11,226 nucleotides of DNA from Candidatus Undinarchaeales archaeon (lineage in GTDB: Archaea; SpSt-1190; JASMDC01), in the NCBI GenBank assembly GCA_030753015.1, contig JASMDC010000067.1, forward strand, positions 1 through 11,226. Direction: 5' to 3'. The notes under the pieces were generated by a model. That model did no database searches, was not told the DNA's origin, and saw only the letters and a list, made by a program, of their open reading frames with translations. The position numbers were made by a program, and so were the translations under genes. Below, in pieces: positions 572 to 8,707 of the stretch. Each line of letters begins with the position of its first letter. The stretch's first letter is position 1.

Positions 572-604
572 GTTCTCATCCGACCTCCATGGGGAAAAGG
601 ATAT

Positions 605-609
605 TCAGT
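605..609. repeat. Target-site duplication, left copy (TCAGT)
   Basis: TCAGT directly abuts the left inverted repeat and is repeated at 2622-2626 directly abutting the right one. It is 5 bp long, in line with the IS1634 family. In the interrupted gene these bases are the end of codon 6 and codon 7. Confidence 0.93.
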
Positions 610-627
610 CCCGTCTTCAAAAGTAAT
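610..627. repeat. IS left terminal inverted repeat
   Basis: CCCGTCTTCAAAAGTAAT matches the reverse complement of 2604-2621 at 16 of 18 positions. The match stops exactly at the border with the TCAGT duplication. Confidence 0.9.
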
Positions 628-760
628 CTGATTCGGGCCCGTATCTGAACGTCTACTTTTTGCACCATCTTCCTTGCGTACCACGATTTCCATAGAGGCT
701 CCATGAGTAATCAAGGACACCCCTAACACAAACCAAATAAAATCGTGTTACTACCCAAAC

Positions 761-770
761 AAATTTAAAA
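761..770 (+). promoter_or_regulatory. Putative TATA box of the transposase gene
   Basis: AAATTTAAAA is centred about 33 bases upstream of the transposase ATG at 799, within an AT-rich stretch of the element's left non-coding end. A 9-base direct repeat CCCTAACAC (721-729 and 779-787) brackets it. No Shine-Dalgarno motif is evident before 799, so a short-leader or leaderless transcript is likely. Confidence 0.45.
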
Positions 771-798
771 CTAATAAACCCTAACACTATTGAGCCTC

Positions 799-2538
799 AT
801 GGTCCAACTCGTCAAGAAGACGTTCGGCAAGTATTCCTACTACTACCTCGTGGAGAAGAAGAAGGTCGATGGTAAGGTGAAGACCCTCTGGCAGATCTAC
901 CTGGGCACCCCCGAGAAGATCGCCGAGTTCTACCGGGCCCACAAGGATCTTCCTGAGGTCAAGCTGAAGTCCTTCCCCTTCGGCCTCGACGCGGCCCTCC
1001 TCGCCGTGTCCGATGACCTCGGCTTCGTCGATGTCGTCGATACGCACACGTCCAAGAAGAAGATAAAAGGCCTCACTGTGGGCGAGTACGCCCTCCTCGT
1101 GCTCATGGGGCGGTGCAGCGCGCCCGTGAGCAAGGAGGGGGTGGAGCGGTGGTTCAACAAGGACACATTCCTTCACCTGCTCTGGAGCTTCCCGCACCAG
1201 CTCTCGGGCCAGAACGTGCGCAACCACCTCGACTACCTGCTCACCCCCGAAGAGGAGTCGCGCGGAGATCCTGGGGCGATCCGGAACATCGAGGAGGATC
1301 TGGCCCGCGCCCTGCTCGTGCAGGGCGTGAAACCGACCACGCTCATCTGGGACACCACCAACGTGTTCACCCACATCGAGAAGGGCGGCAAGCTGCTGAA
1401 GAAGACGAAGAGCAAGCAGATGCGGTTCGACAAGAACCACGTCGCGTTCGGCCTTGCCGTCAGTCAGGAGAACATCCCGTTCCTCAGCGAGGTGTACGAG
1501 GCTAACGAGCCCGACGTCACGCTCTTCCCCAAGGTCTTCGGTCGTCTCGTGGACCGCCTCGTCAGGCTGAACATCGACACAGAGGGCCTCACGCTGGTGT
1601 TCGACAAGGGCAACAACTCCGTGGACAACCTAAAGGCCGTCCTCGGGCACATGCATGTGGTTGGTGCCCTGCGGAGGGACCATCCCGTGGCCGCCGAACT
1701 GCTGGCCATCGACGCGAAGGAGTACGAACCCCTCTACACGACCGGCAAGGGGCACGCGGTGACGGGGCTGCGGAGGGACGACGTCGGGCTCTTCGGCATG
1801 GACCGGCCCTTCACGGTGGTGGCCAAGCACAACGATGGCACCCGGAGGAAGCAGGAGGGCACGTACGACAGAACCACGGCTCGGATCATCGAAACGCTGG
1901 AGGAGTTGAAGGCCAAGGCGGGGCGCGTTGGCGGGCGCGGGCGGCGCATGACCGAGGAGGGGCTGCACCGTGCCATCAACGACGCAATCTACAAGGACTA
2001 CCGCGCCCTGTTCCACTACACGGTCAGAAAGAAGGAGGTCGAGATCCCTGGAAAGAACAGGAGGTCCACCATCCTCGACCTTGAGTACTGGCTCGATGAG
2101 GAAAAGGAAAGGGAGCGCCCGGAAGGATTCGGCAAGAGCGTGCTCTTCACGGACAACACCGGCTGGTCCACTGCCGATATCTCCAAGGCGTACGACTCCA
2201 AGAACATCATCGAGGACGACTTCGCGTGCTTCAAGGGCAGGCTGTTCGTCCGTATCATGCCCATCGAGGTGCGCAAGGACAACAGGGTGCGCGTCCACGT
2301 CGAACTGTGCGTTTGGGGGATGCTCTTCTATCGCTACCTCGCACGCAAGCTGAAGACGATGGGGATTGACGTCACCTTTGGGCGGATGATCGAGGAGTTG
2401 AAGGACATACGGCTTGCTGTGGTCGAGAACAAGGAGAGCAATAAGATCGAGATAAAGCTTGAGGAGATGAATCCTCTCCAGGCGAGGATTTTCACCGCTC
2501 TCAACCTCGCACGCTACATTCCCGAAAGCAAGAGGTAG
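799..2538 (+). CDS. IS1634-family (IS4 superfamily) DDE transposase
   Basis: This 579-residue protein catalyses cut-and-paste movement of the surrounding element. The N-terminus (KTFGKYSYYYLVEKKKVDGKVK, then QIYLGTPE) is the opening typical of IS1634-type transposases. The catalytic triad can be placed at D185 (context LIWDTTN), D269 (LVFDKGNNS) and E472 (YDSKNIIEDDFACFK); the last fits the Y-(2)-R/K-(3)-E signature of the IS4 superfamily. An all-alpha C-terminal segment ends at residue 579. The length is usual for the family and no frameshift or internal stop is seen. ATG 799 is preferred over an in-frame TTG at 790 because it matches the family's start and places the TATA-like box upstream. 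Its codon use is GC-rich like its neighbours, so base composition does not mark it as foreign. Confidence 0.92.
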   Translation: MVQLVKKTFGKYSYYYLVEKKKVDGKVKTLWQIYLGTPEKIAEFYRAHKDLPEVKLKSFPFGLDAALLAVSDDLGFVDVVDTHTSKKKIKGLTVGEYALLVLMGRCSAPVSKEGVERWFNKDTFLHLLWSFPHQLSGQNVRNHLDYLLTPEEESRGDPGAIRNIEEDLARALLVQGVKPTTLIWDTTNVFTHIEKGGKLLKKTKSKQMRFDKNHVAFGLAVSQENIPFLSEVYEANEPDVTLFPKVFGRLVDRLVRLNIDTEGLTLVFDKGNNSVDNLKAVLGHMHVVGALRRDHPVAAELLAIDAKEYEPLYTTGKGHAVTGLRRDDVGLFGMDRPFTVVAKHNDGTRRKQEGTYDRTTARIIETLEELKAKAGRVGGRGRRMTEEGLHRAINDAIYKDYRALFHYTVRKKEVEIPGKNRRSTILDLEYWLDEEKERERPEGFGKSVLFTDNTGWSTADISKAYDSKNIIEDDFACFKGRLFVRIMPIEVRKDNRVRVHVELCVWGMLFYRYLARKLKTMGIDVTFGRMIEELKDIRLAVVENKESNKIEIKLEEMNPLQARIFTALNLARYIPESKR

Positions 2539-2573
2539 ACGGGAAACGAATTAATTCCTGATAGGTACAACCA

Positions 2574-2601
2574 AAAAACGCTAGACGCAAGGCCCGTTTT
2601 T
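2574..2601. terminator. Possible bidirectional terminator inside the IS right end
   Basis: AAAAACG (2574-2580) pairs with CGTTTTT (2595-2601) across a 14-base loop, 35 bases after the transposase stop. It provides a T-run on either strand and could limit transcription into or out of the element. Confidence 0.35.
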
Positions 2602-2603
2602 CA

Positions 2604-2621
2604 ATAACTTTTGATGACGGG
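2604..2621. repeat. IS right terminal inverted repeat
   Basis: The reverse complement reads CCCGTCATCAAAAGTTAT, matching the left end at 16 of 18 positions. It is directly followed by the second TCAGT copy. Confidence 0.9.
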
Positions 2622-2626
2622 TCAGT
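2622..2626. repeat. Target-site duplication, right copy (TCAGT)
   Basis: Identical to 605-609 and immediately outside the right inverted repeat. Downstream of it the lipoprotein frame resumes with GCC CTT CTT. Confidence 0.93.
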
Positions 2627-2677
2627 GCCCTTCTTGTCATCAGCCTGGTGCTGATCGCAGGCTGCGTCGACGGTGAG

Positions 2678-2773
2678 GACGTCAAGGTTGACACAGGTGA
2701 CGTCAAGGTGGATGTCAGCGGCGATGATGTGAAGGTTGACACGGGTGACGTCAAGGTGGATGCTGACGACGAG
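2678..2773 (+). repeat. Two 48-bp in-frame repeats in the disrupted lipoprotein
   Basis: Units 2678-2725 and 2726-2773 each encode 16 residues beginning DVKVDTGDVKVD. The first 12 codons are the same in protein and nearly the same in DNA; the last four differ (VSGD versus ADDE). Each unit itself contains two DVKVD motifs, so the pattern is a nested repeat. Confidence 0.85.
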
Positions 2774-2853
2774 GGTGTAGATGTGGATGTCGACGACCTG
2801 GACATCCCGGTAGATATCCCAACATAGGGGAAGATAGGAATCCTGGATGGCAT

Positions 2854-2921: not shown

Positions 2922-5033
2922 ATGAAGCACAACACACTAATTGCGCTCCTGCTGGCAGCGCTACTCTTGGGAACCATCCCTGCCGGATTGGCCCAGGACG
3001 CGGATACAGCCGTAGAGACCGTGACCGATGACACCTCCGCTGATGCGGCAGGTGATACCTTGAGTGCAGCTGTAGAGGACGGCGAGCTCGACCGAGTCGC
3101 CGTTAAGGAGGCGATCACCAATGCGTACGTCGCCAAGAAGCTCAATCGTGCCCATGTGCGACGGTTACTTGCGAGGATGTACGCCCGACGCGCGCTCAAG
3201 CGTGCTGATCTCAGGTGGTTGCTCATCAACTCCTACAAGGAGGGCAAGCTCACCCGCGACGATGTACGAGAGCTCATCTTCAACATGTACAAGGAGAAGC
3301 ACCTGCGCCGTGCGGACGTCCGCTGGCTCATCGTTCATGCCTACAAGAACAATGAGCTCACCCGCGACGACGTGCGTGAGATCCTTGGCGCTGCCCACAA
3401 GGCCGGCGTGCTCACAAAGGCGGACCTCAAGTGGCTTGTCGTCTCGGCATACAAGGCCGGAGAACTCAAGCGCTCGGACCTCATGGAGCTGGCAGGGGCC
3501 ATGTACAAGAACGGCCACCTCGCTCGCGCGGACCTGAAGTGGCTCATTATCAATGGCTACAAGGCCGGCGAGCTGCGGCGGAGTGACGTGCGGTTCATGA
3601 TTGCAAAGGCCCACAAGCTCGGCCACCTTAAGCGCTCTGACGTGCGCTGGATCCTGGTACAGGCCCACAAGGCGGGTGAGCTCGAGGCTGGTGACATCCA
3701 CTGGATCCTCAAGAACGCCGTCGCCCAGGGCGAGATGACCAAGGAGGACGCGACAGGGATTATCACCGAGGCCGTTGATGCCGGTGAGCTCACCGTCGAG
3801 GACGTGGACGCCGCAGAGGTCGTGGCGGAGGCTGATAAGGTCGTCGCCGTCGAGGAGGAGGACGAGCCCTTCACCAACGATGCTTCCGTGGTCGCCTTCC
3901 TCGCTGTGAAGGGTAGGCTCATGGAGATGGACATCCTCGCTCGTGCTATGATCGCCTTCCACCGCTCCAAGGGGCGTGACGTGACGCCCCTCGTCGAGAA
4001 GCGCACAGCCTTCATCGATGCTATCCAAGAGCTCGAGGACGCGGCCCAGGACGATGACAAGGAGCTCGTCAAGACGAAGGGTGCTGCGATCAAGGCGGCC
4101 GCCGTGGCCTTCCAGCAAGCGAACAAGGGTATGCTCCAGCAGGGTGACAAGGTCGCTATCGGTATGTTCATGATCAAGCACCGTAATAAGTACAAAGCTG
4201 AGATCGATGAGCTCAAGAAGGCGGTGGCCATGCGAGTCGCTGCCCGGCGTCTTGCAGCCTTCGACCGCCACGTTAAGCGCGCTGAGCGTATGGTGGCCAA
4301 GGCCAAGGCAGAGGGCATCGACACATCCGTCGTGGACCCGAAGCTCGCGGAGGTCAAGGCGGCACGGACAGCGCTGACCGATGCGTTCAACAGCGGTAAG
4401 AAGGCAGAGATCGCCAAGGCCGCTCGGGACGTGAAGAAGAAGAGTGCTGAGCTAAAGCGCGTGTTCGAGCGCGAGGCCAGGAAGGCCATGGCCACCAAGT
4501 TCCTTGCTAGGACAGAGGTGGCATCGGCCAAGGTGCACGGCTTCCTCGACGCTGCTGACGAGCAGGGCATGGCCACCGCTCAGGAACGGGCCAAGCTCGA
4601 GAAGATCGATGCTCATGTCGCAAAGGCACGAGCGAACCTCGAGGCCGGAAAGTACGGTATGGCCCTTGGCAACCTTCGCGCGGCCAACCGCCAGTTCCAC
4701 GCGCTCAAGCGTGGGATGAAGGCGCGCGCCCTGTTCGGCAAGCGCGGTGCGATCCGTGCCTATGTCAAGAAGGTGCGCCACCCGCTCCTGCGGCTCAAGC
4801 GTGCTGCTGTGGCCCTTGAGAAGAACGGTGTGGACATATCCGCCGAGAAGGAGCAGGCCGAGCAGGTCAAGACGCTGCTGGACAGCGCTGGCGAGAAGGT
4901 CAAGGCCGAAGATTATGACGGTGCCCTCGAGGACGCTAAGAAGGCACGAGAGACCTTCAACACCATGCGCAGCTCCCTGATCGAGAAGGTCAAGAGCCTG
5001 AAGGCCTCCAAGGCCACCGAGGGAGGTGCCTAA
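2922..5033 (+). CDS. Exported helical protein with fourteen 18-residue repeats
   Basis: The 703-residue product starts with a signal peptide (residues 1-25, ending AGLAQ) and an acidic Ala/Thr/Asp linker. Residues 50-301 are fourteen consecutive 18-residue repeats with consensus (A/M)YKAGEL-x-R-(S/A/D)-DVRWLI-x-N: short amphipathic helices joined by a G-E-L turn, suggesting an alpha-solenoid. An acidic joint (VAVEEEDEPF, near 308-317) leads to a Lys/Ala/Glu-rich helical region (330-700). That region contains three related hairpin modules near 460-500, 560-605 and 645-685, with K-(Y/D)-(2)-AL-(3)-(R/K)-x-A signatures in the last two. No C-terminal anchor or enzymatic motif is seen. The stop codon is one base from the next gene, whose ribosome site lies inside this gene's last codons, so the two are co-translated. 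A structural or scaffold role at the cell surface, perhaps anchored by the partner lipoprotein, is inference. I do not recognise a named family. Confidence 0.88.
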   Translation: MKHNTLIALLLAALLLGTIPAGLAQDADTAVETVTDDTSADAAGDTLSAAVEDGELDRVAVKEAITNAYVAKKLNRAHVRRLLARMYARRALKRADLRWLLINSYKEGKLTRDDVRELIFNMYKEKHLRRADVRWLIVHAYKNNELTRDDVREILGAAHKAGVLTKADLKWLVVSAYKAGELKRSDLMELAGAMYKNGHLARADLKWLIINGYKAGELRRSDVRFMIAKAHKLGHLKRSDVRWILVQAHKAGELEAGDIHWILKNAVAQGEMTKEDATGIITEAVDAGELTVEDVDAAEVVAEADKVVAVEEEDEPFTNDASVVAFLAVKGRLMEMDILARAMIAFHRSKGRDVTPLVEKRTAFIDAIQELEDAAQDDDKELVKTKGAAIKAAAVAFQQANKGMLQQGDKVAIGMFMIKHRNKYKAEIDELKKAVAMRVAARRLAAFDRHVKRAERMVAKAKAEGIDTSVVDPKLAEVKAARTALTDAFNSGKKAEIAKAARDVKKKSAELKRVFEREARKAMATKFLARTEVASAKVHGFLDAADEQGMATAQERAKLEKIDAHVAKARANLEAGKYGMALGNLRAANRQFHALKRGMKARALFGKRGAIRAYVKKVRHPLLRLKRAAVALEKNGVDISAEKEQAEQVKTLLDSAGEKVKAEDYDGALEDAKKARETFNTMRSSLIEKVKSLKASKATEGGA
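3069..3824 (+). repeat. Fourteen 54-bp (18-codon) repeats
   Basis: Repeat units keep an exact 18-codon period with no insertions over about 250 codons. From unit 3 to unit 10 the helix core alternates between a (R/K)WL form and a (R/M)EL or RFM form, implying growth by duplication of a 36-residue pair. Units are diverged at DNA level, so the array is old, unlike the near-identical repeats at 145-330. Confidence 0.85.
5022..5028 (+). promoter_or_regulatory. Strong Shine-Dalgarno site inside the upstream gene's end
   Basis: GGAGGTG overlaps the last codons of the 703-residue protein and sits six bases before ATG 5035. It decides in favour of ATG 5035 over the in-frame GTG at 5026, which overlaps this site, and indicates translational coupling. 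Confidence 0.85.
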
Positions 5034-5034
5034 G

Positions 5035-5406
5035 ATGGAACGGGACACCCTGTACACCCTCGTGGTACTGGGCCTGATCATGTGTTTGGCGATGACTGCT
5101 GGTTGTGTCGGGCGTGGCAAGCGCGCCGGTAAGCAACCACCGCCCAAGACGCCGCCCGGGCCCGCTGTGACGGGGACGCCCGCGGCTACTGCCGTACCGT
5201 CCGAGCCCACTGAGCCAGTCGAGACCGCTGCCCCTGTCACAGAGATGGACCTCGATGTCGAGGACATAGAGGATATCGATGTGCCCGATCTCTCGGATGA
5301 CGACTTTGAAGTACCCGATATCCCCGAGGACGAATTGACCATTGACGAGCCCGATTTCGCCGAGGAGTCGGAACTCGATGTCGGCGACATGGAAACGACC
5401 GCCTAG
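5035..5406 (+). CDS. Acidic, proline-rich lipoprotein
   Basis: The 123-residue product begins with a hydrophobic signal sequence ending in lipobox MTAGC; the predicted lipidated cysteine is residue 24. A short basic patch (GRGKRAGK) follows, then a Pro/Thr/Ala linker, and a tail dominated by Asp and Glu with repeated D-(V/I)-x-D and VPD/IPE motifs from about residue 67 on. There is no catalytic signature. It starts one base after the 703-residue protein's stop, with its ribosome site inside that gene, so the pair form one unit closed by the terminator at 5422. The tail is similar in style to that of the disrupted lipoprotein at 589-2827 (VDVDDLDIPVDIP), suggesting a paralogous or functionally related pair. 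The acidic tail could bind calcium or the Lys/Arg-rich helical partner; this is inference. Confidence 0.85.
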   Translation: MERDTLYTLVVLGLIMCLAMTAGCVGRGKRAGKQPPPKTPPGPAVTGTPAATAVPSEPTEPVETAAPVTEMDLDVEDIEDIDVPDLSDDDFEVPDIPEDELTIDEPDFAEESELDVGDMETTA

Positions 5407-5987: not shown

Positions 5988-6084
5988 GTACTCAGGTAGG
6001 TATCTTACCTTTCGGATCTGGTATCCTTCAGAGGAACAGGACATTCATCCCTCCCATGAATATTAGGGTGTTTTACGTCAAACA
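5988..6084. other. Short region between the tnpB relic and the next promoter
   Basis: No gene is supported here. It contains a GGGGGG run near 5972-5977 just inside the relic, a small inverted repeat AGGTA/TACCT (5995-6009) and an in-frame ATG at 6056 that is probably not used. It may hold flanking sequence of the lost insertion sequence end. Confidence 0.4.
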
Positions 6085-6094
6085 TTTTATAAAT
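6085..6094 (+). promoter_or_regulatory. TATA box of the cysteine-rich/TPR membrane protein gene
   Basis: TTTTATAAAT is a near-consensus archaeal TATA element centred 27 bases upstream of ATG 6116. This spacing predicts transcription starting at or next to that ATG (leaderless), which excludes the upstream ATG at 6056 as the translation start. Confidence 0.75.
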
Positions 6095-6115
6095 GAAGTC
6101 CGCCTTTCTCCAACC

Positions 6116-8707
6116 ATGAGCAGGTGGAGCGCGGTCCCAGCAGGTATGGCCGTGATGGCATTCTGCCTTGTCCTGACACTCACCCAGGGCCAGTACCTGG
6201 GCGACCGGGCATTCCCCACCTATATGATCTCACAGGTGGGCCGGTGCGCCCCAATGAACTGCGCTCGCTGGGATTGCACCGAGAACCGGATATATATTGA
6301 GGGATTATTCGGCAGGGACCAGGAGACCTGCGACACCTGGGAGTGCGTCACGTGGAACGATGAGCTCTGTGATAAGTGGAACTGCACTAGCCTGGACCTT
6401 CCCAAGGACCGCTATCACGAGACCTGCGATGTCTACTCCTGCACGTCCTGGAAAGGCGAAGTGTGCGACAAGTGGGACTGTACAAAGGTCGATATGCCTG
6501 CAGGGAACGACAAGGAGACCTGTGATATCTACGAATGTACCCTCTGGAACGAGGACCAATGTCGGTCCTGGGACTGCACGGACGGGGACATCCCCTCCAG
6601 CGATGACCTCTCATCCTGCGACACTATGAACTGCACATCGTGGTTCGACGACGTGTGCCGTATCTGGGACTGTACGGCAGGGGACATTCCAGCCTCCAAT
6701 GACCGGGAGGTCTGCTATCGCTACCAGTGCGTGGCATGGCGGGGGCGGGTGTGCGCGGCATGGGACTGCGTGGAGGACCCGTTCTTCGTGGGAATGACAC
6801 GCAGCGAGACGTGCTTCTCCTGGGACTGCGCGAGCTGGAACGTCACCACACTCCCCGAGGAGTGCGGGTGCTCCAAGAACACCGATTGTGACTCTGGATG
6901 CTGCGCCTGGGACGTCTGCTCTCCCGCCGGCGCCGACGGGGATGGTGACGAGCAGACCTGCCAATGCCGGAACGGCGGCTGGTACGAAGGGAAGTGCTGC
7001 GGTGATGACTTCCTCGAGTCCTGGTGCGGCCTCACCGGACACTGCCAGGAGGGCAATTGGATCGAGGGCGCAGGATCCTTCTGCGAGACGTGCCGGAACG
7101 GTGTCTATCTCGAGGGTGCCTGCTGTACCGCCGGAGAATCGTTCTGCTACGCGGGCGGCCGATGCGAGGATGGGAGTATGAAGCCGGTCTGCGAGGGATG
7201 CGATTCGTGTGCAGGAGGTCGCTGCGAGGTAGTGTGCGATGGGACGACCTGTCCCCAGGGGGACGAGACCTGGTGCGAGCGGTGCGCCAATACTGACGGC
7301 GACGCAGATGAGTTCGCATGCACGTGCAAGAAGGGCGTGTGGCATGAGGGTCGCTGCTGTGGCGACGACACCATCGACGAATGGACCGGTGAGAAGGGTC
7401 GGTGCACACGTGGACAGTGGCGGAAAGGCAAGCCTCGTGTCAACACGACCGAGGTGAAGGCCCTCGAGTCCGCCGAATCGTGCGGGGACATGACGGGCCG
7501 GGAACTGAACGATTGCCTCCTCAAGGTGGCGGACGAGCTCTCGCTCTGGGATCCCATCGACGGCGCCACCGCCTGTGAGATGATCCTCGACGACGATGAG
7601 CTGCGGTACTCGTGCTTCGAGATGGTGCTCGCACGCACCGATGGTGTTGACCGGCTATCCGTGATGATCAGGCACCGTCCTATTCGGGTGCTCATCTGGC
7701 CGTTCCTGATGCTGTTTGTCGTCGCGCTCTGGGTGACGACAGTCTACAGTAAGAAAGGGAAGAAGAAGTATGTCGCCTACGAGGAGTCGAAGCCAAAGGA
7801 CCTCTCGGACACCCAGTTCGAGACCGAGGGCCTGGCGGAGGCTCTGGAGCACCTCTACAAGAACCTTAACATCCCTGACGTGCTGGAGTACGGCCAGAGC
7901 CGCCACATCGAGCAGTACATCGTCACCGACTTCCTGAATAACGAGGAATCGGTCATGGCTCTGAAGAAGGGGATGACGAAGGAGGAGTTCGATGACGTCG
8001 TCACACCGCGTCTCTATATGATGATGGGCAACGTCCACTTCATGCTCGGGGACTTCCAGGCCGCCAGGAAGCGCTACGAGCGCGGTATCGTCATGGACAG
8101 GACCAATGTCGCCCTCTGGAACAACATCGGGCTTGCTTTCCACCACATCGGTGACGAGGACAAGGCCGAGAAGGCGCTCAAGAAGGCCAAGGGGATCTCG
8201 CCTGAGGACAAGGTGGTGCTGCTCAACCTCGGGAAGCTCTATGGGACCCGGGCCTATATCCAGCGGACGGGCGGTTCGTGGCCCGCACAGACGGCCAAGA
8301 TGCCGGAGGGCATGCGGGATTATCGGAGCATGTCCTGGGACTATGGTCGCTATTCCAAGTCAGCGAACTGGGGCAGCCCACCCAAGTGGCGCGAGGAGTA
8401 CCTTGAGAAGGAGCAGACATCGCTCTACGACCGTCAGGTCGAGCTCTACTCGAAGGTGCTGGAGAAGGAGCCGAACAACGTGGAGGCCATCGTGAACCTC
8501 GGTATCGCCTATCGTCATAAGGGCATGATTGACCAGGCCCTCTATCACCTCGAACGGGTCGTCGCACTCCAACCGAAGAACACAGTAGCGCTATACGAGC
8601 TCGCCCGGGTCAGCGAGGAGCAGGGTGAAACCAAGAAAATGGTCGAGTACTACCGCCGGTGTCGGGACAACATCCATCTGGAACGCCCTTCTGGACCGGA
8701 CAAGTAG
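6116..8707 (+). CDS. Single-pass membrane protein: Cys-rich repeat ectodomain plus cytoplasmic TPR domain
   Basis: From ATG 6116 the product has 863 residues. Residues 8-24 form a signal peptide core. Residues 44-240 hold tandem 32-residue repeats of the form C-x4-C-x7-C-x4-C with recurring W-x-C and CDxW motifs. Residues 250-435 are a second cysteine-rich region with two related modules (C-x-C-(3)-G-x-W-x-EG-(K/R)-CCGDD at about 282-297 and 402-417). A third segment has four spaced cysteines (456, 467, 487, 500). A membrane helix lies at 525-544 (VLIWPFLMLFVVALW), followed by the basic stop-transfer KKGKKK. The rest is cytoplasmic, with TPR units near 632-708 and 765-850 (NxGxAYRHKGMxDQALYHLERV type) separated by a Trp/Tyr-rich insert (717-757). 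About 60 cysteines lie outside the cell. The layout suggests a surface receptor, adhesin or scaffold linking an outer structure to a cytoplasmic partner. I recognise no named family. A TATA box at 6085 supports this start. Confidence 0.88.
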   Translation: MSRWSAVPAGMAVMAFCLVLTLTQGQYLGDRAFPTYMISQVGRCAPMNCARWDCTENRIYIEGLFGRDQETCDTWECVTWNDELCDKWNCTSLDLPKDRYHETCDVYSCTSWKGEVCDKWDCTKVDMPAGNDKETCDIYECTLWNEDQCRSWDCTDGDIPSSDDLSSCDTMNCTSWFDDVCRIWDCTAGDIPASNDREVCYRYQCVAWRGRVCAAWDCVEDPFFVGMTRSETCFSWDCASWNVTTLPEECGCSKNTDCDSGCCAWDVCSPAGADGDGDEQTCQCRNGGWYEGKCCGDDFLESWCGLTGHCQEGNWIEGAGSFCETCRNGVYLEGACCTAGESFCYAGGRCEDGSMKPVCEGCDSCAGGRCEVVCDGTTCPQGDETWCERCANTDGDADEFACTCKKGVWHEGRCCGDDTIDEWTGEKGRCTRGQWRKGKPRVNTTEVKALESAESCGDMTGRELNDCLLKVADELSLWDPIDGATACEMILDDDELRYSCFEMVLARTDGVDRLSVMIRHRPIRVLIWPFLMLFVVALWVTTVYSKKGKKKYVAYEESKPKDLSDTQFETEGLAEALEHLYKNLNIPDVLEYGQSRHIEQYIVTDFLNNEESVMALKKGMTKEEFDDVVTPRLYMMMGNVHFMLGDFQAARKRYERGIVMDRTNVALWNNIGLAFHHIGDEDKAEKALKKAKGISPEDKVVLLNLGKLYGTRAYIQRTGGSWPAQTAKMPEGMRDYRSMSWDYGRYSKSANWGSPPKWREEYLEKEQTSLYDRQVELYSKVLEKEPNNVEAIVNLGIAYRHKGMIDQALYHLERVVALQPKNTVALYELARVSEEQGETKKMVEYYRRCRDNIHLERPSGPDK
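6323..6805 (+). repeat. Five 32-33-residue cysteine-rich repeats
   Basis: Units start at residues 70, 102, 134, 166 and 198 of the membrane protein. The first four are exactly 32 codons and the fifth is 33. Each has four cysteines in C-x4-C-x7-C-x4-C spacing and most end with a D-(I/L/M)-P turn. Degenerate half units flank the array (C44-C49-C54, and C233-C238). Confidence 0.88.

Follow-up and report, generated by a model that had tools for sequence, protein, structure and literature searches.

It is known that the insertion sequences of the IS1634 family, formerly IS1549, are typically 1500-2000 bp long, have poorly conserved ends of the form C-----YT, are bordered, in AT-rich tracts, by direct repeats of 5-6 bp, and encode a transposase with the YREK motif, in which the arginine is mostly absent ('IS4 family goes genomic', 2008; PMC2266710). 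Here we describe an element of this family in a window of 11,226 nucleotides (the whole of the analysed stretch, contig JASMDC010000067.1) from an assembly assigned to a Candidatus Undinarchaeales archaeon (GCA_030753015.1), where the element very probably was inserted into a small lipoprotein gene after the seventh codon.

The element (2012 bp; 610-2621, + strand) is present in a single copy in the genome and is flanked by two copies of TCAGT (605-609 and 2622-2626), identified by flank comparison and by a blind search. The left terminal inverted repeat, CCCGTCTTCAAAAGTAAT (610-627, + strand), and the right one, CCCGTCATCAAAAGTTAT (2604-2621, read on the - strand), were identified by end alignment and by the blind search; they are 18 bp long and imperfect (16/18 matching), with an alignment score reached by none of the 2000 shuffles. 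The motif built from both ends, CCCGTCNTCAAAAGTNAT, occurs only at these two sites in the genome of 3,845,586 bases. The target duplication is exactly 5 bp, as comparisons at 4 and 6-9 bp fail, and the blind search, which required inverted repeats together with a flanking duplication, independently recovered the exact coordinates. Thus, the earlier note, which had placed a 2012-bp element at 610-2621 between the TCAGT copies, was right to the base, and the insertion itself is certain.

The only long gene of the element encodes a DDE transposase of 579 aa (799-2538, + strand), read from ATG 799; the mechanical open reading frame opens earlier, at TTG 790. The protein matches the IS1634 transposase model of NCBIfam, NF033559, with 201.8 bits (E 2.2e-59), that is, with twice the curated cut-off of 100 bits, and has no match in Pfam. 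Its catalytic triad is intact (D185, D269, E472), and in the alignment of nine IS1634-type transposases of this genome the three positions are conserved in 9/9, 9/9 and 8/9 sequences, respectively. The YREK-like motif retains Y465 and K479, with the arginine replaced by lysine. The left end of the element, CCCGTCTT, matches C-----YT in full, and the right end, CCCGTCAT, departs from it at position 7, where Y is replaced by A; the duplicated TCAGT, 5 bp with A/T at three positions of five, agrees with the direct repeats described for the family. Among the collections searched, the best relative of the transposase comes from Rhodococcus plasmids at about 28% identity, and no close relatives were found in GTDB contigs, viral contigs or phages. 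The element is a divergent addition to the known IS1634 family.

The source genome is archaeal by its TFIIB genes, the TFIIB search matching only the archaeal genomes among the controls. The SSU rRNA search of the assembly found nothing, and the assembly comprises 3.85 Mb, compared with only 0.6-1.1 Mb in nine relatives of the same class.

If the element and one copy of TCAGT are removed, 589-609 is joined to 2627-2827, and the resulting frame encodes 73 aa plus a stop, beginning with MGKRIFSALLVISLVLIAGC. In the joined translation, the 5' part of the gene (589-609, + strand) starts with ATG, holds seven codons (MGKRIFS) and ends in the left TCAGT, and the 3' part (2627-2827, + strand) supplies the remainder of the signal peptide, the lipobox IAGC, an acidic repeat region and the stop. 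We required a lipoprotein signal to have K/R in the n-region, a hydrophobic core and a lipobox [LVI][ASTVIG][GAS]C near residue 20; the joined frame has all of these, with MGKR as the n-region. The claim that the deletion restores a lipoprotein frame of 73 residues from ATG 589, with a signal peptide and IAGC, was thus confirmed, and with the family match, the ends, the target duplication, the restored frame and the signal peptide all in agreement, the locus is best read as a lipoprotein gene split by an insertion sequence.

The body of the 73-aa protein is acidic, and no Pfam family scores above its cut-off. Sequence comparison revealed two tandem in-frame repeats of 48 bp, VDGEDVKVDTGDVKVD and VSGDDVKVDTGDVKVD (2666-2761, + strand), which differ at 7 bases, 5 of them third positions of codons; judged by this pattern, the 3' half resembles a coding sequence that was formerly constrained. 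Within this half there is also a GTG-started frame of 59 codons (2648-2827). The earlier note expected neither half to be annotated as a gene, but gene-calling software might pick up this frame as a hypothetical protein, although one lacking a usable signal peptide.

Upstream of the gene there is a terminator-like hairpin (528-556) followed by a T-rich stretch (together 528-575, + strand; sequence and fold), and another hairpin with a T-run, 3' of the stop codon (2847-2894, + strand), is judging by its predicted fold a likely terminator. Since terminator-like hairpins are situated both upstream and after the stop, the lipoprotein gene looks like a single-gene unit. The T/A-rich TTTATTAT, about 26 nt upstream of ATG 589, could be a candidate TATA box or promoter element. 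Before the insertion, a membrane-anchored lipoprotein would presumably have been expressed from this gene.

Elsewhere in the window, at 2922-5033, a secreted protein of 703 aa with many repeats of the RADLKWLIxxxYKxGEL type is predicted; it matches nothing in Pfam, and searches of 61 genomes and of GTDB contigs gave no convincing relatives. The gene at 6056-8707 encodes a protein of unusual make-up, in which Cys/Trp repeats (WDCT, CDxWxCT) are combined with a hydrophobic segment and, at the C-terminus, a TPR domain; translation may in fact begin at the ATG near 6117, which lies 3' of TTTATAAAT. At the contig edge (1-498), a Cys-rich protein with near-identical repeats (PDPTLDPSECQADDDCDEG) has a weak match to DUF7107.

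An uninterrupted relative of the gene was sought at several levels. In its own genome we found neither an uninterrupted gene nor, in the assembly, an empty-site copy. No uninterrupted homologous locus was seen in the relatives searches of 61 and 297 genomes, where the nearest genomes share only the class with the source genome; it was likewise absent from all 10 genomes of the phylum that were examined and from GTDB contigs approached via the neighbouring 703-aa gene, and the exact empty-site string was not found in viral contigs. The search of 297 genomes yielded three distant matches near E 7e-4 (38-42% identity), covering only a part of a low-complexity acidic protein. As no uninterrupted relative was found, the ancestral gene is reconstructed from the sequence of this locus.

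We estimated how frequently a similar frame would arise by chance. Among 200,000 random joins of genome DNA, 34 yielded a comparable lipoprotein frame, for which we demanded a start at ATG, a length of 60 aa or more and a strictly defined lipoprotein signal; this figure flatters the case, since the lipobox sits in the right flank alone, together with the greater part of the hydrophobic stretch. When the right flank was kept constant, about 19% of random left flanks offered an in-frame ATG, open and no more than 60 nt away, and about 5% offered an ATG with a short positively charged n-region. The join itself is independently proven by the duplication and the inverted repeats, and the joined frame is well supported rather than proven; in the light of these comparisons, ATG 589 is only moderately supported as the exact start codon.

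These estimates bear on the alternative in which the insertion is real, the element having landed in an intergenic or leader region, the true start of the gene is elsewhere, and ATG 589 is fortuitous. A comparable start is, as shown, expected from about one in twenty random left flanks, and there is no uninterrupted homologue for comparison. However, the first other in-frame start past the element, GTG 2648, is inside the signal peptide, whereas the left flank does provide a suitable ATG and n-region, preceded by TTTATTAT at a leaderless-type spacing. Hence we consider a fortuitous ATG 589 improbable. Still less credible is the possibility that the element serves as a reversible on/off switch (phase variation), its precise excision restoring the surface lipoprotein in coexisting empty-site cells: the perfect duplication and the otherwise undamaged gene would permit such excision, but DDE elements as a rule seldom excise precisely, this one is present in a single copy without a dedicated excision gene, and the assembly lacks an empty-site copy.

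Returning to the insertion into the lipoprotein gene, the event would have proceeded as follows. An autonomous IS1634-family element, moving by DDE cut-and-paste transposition (a chemistry assumed from the family), would have entered the gene via 5-bp staggered cuts at the target, with the subsequent fill-in duplicating TCAGT. As a lipoprotein the gene is now switched off, because 2 kb of DNA, including stop codons, lie between its start with the positively charged n-region and the part that encodes the hydrophobic core and lipobox. The perfect duplication and the otherwise undamaged gene suggest that the insertion is recent, and the transposase is presumably active.

The genome contains nine diverse IS1634-type transposase genes above the cut-off, and the blind search found inverted repeats flanked by duplications of 5-7 bp in 8 of these 9 elements. 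Apart from the window element, inverted repeats with duplications of 6-7 bp were observed in seven of the other eight (L017-L024; six of the seven being L019-L024), the remaining one being at a contig end. The transposases of these eight are only about 16-22% identical to that of the window, and hence the IS1634-type elements of the genome represent independent lineages. The L017 element (1412-3137 of contig 24), flanked by the 6-bp duplication TTGCCA, interrupts an oppositely oriented GNAT acetyltransferase gene; when rejoined, this gene has a frame of 154 aa that matches PF13673 with E 3.1e-18. The L022 element may split a small membrane protein gene, and the L023 element a large exported-looking protein gene, these two cases not being confirmed by family matches. 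Given nine IS1634-type transposases and another split gene in the same genome, the knockout of the lipoprotein gene is routine for a known family of insertion sequences.

The event is thus an ordinary one, and no general picture is changed. What is documented is a divergent IS1634 element, its ends defined exactly, in a little-sampled archaeal lineage, in which the family proves to be both diverse and gene-breaking; for annotation, this provides a new insertion sequence entry and a pseudogene note.

Another lipoprotein gene of the same window (5035-5406) resembles the broken one in being short and in encoding a lipobox (in this case, TAGC) and an acidic body, but it is intact, its product has 123 aa and a proline-rich linker, and no sequence homology between the two was demonstrated. 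The window element and L017-L024 have in common the family, the end structure (in seven, with duplications of 6-7 bp) and, in at least one case, the splitting of a gene, whereas the transposases differ. With the IS1634 family as described, the window element shares the transposase family, the terminal C, the 5-bp duplication, the YREK motif lacking the arginine and a single unshifted transposase gene; it differs in that no close relative was seen in the collections searched and in that its 2012 bp marginally exceed the typical 1500-2000 bp, by 12 bp, the related elements of the same genome being 1699-2101 bp long.
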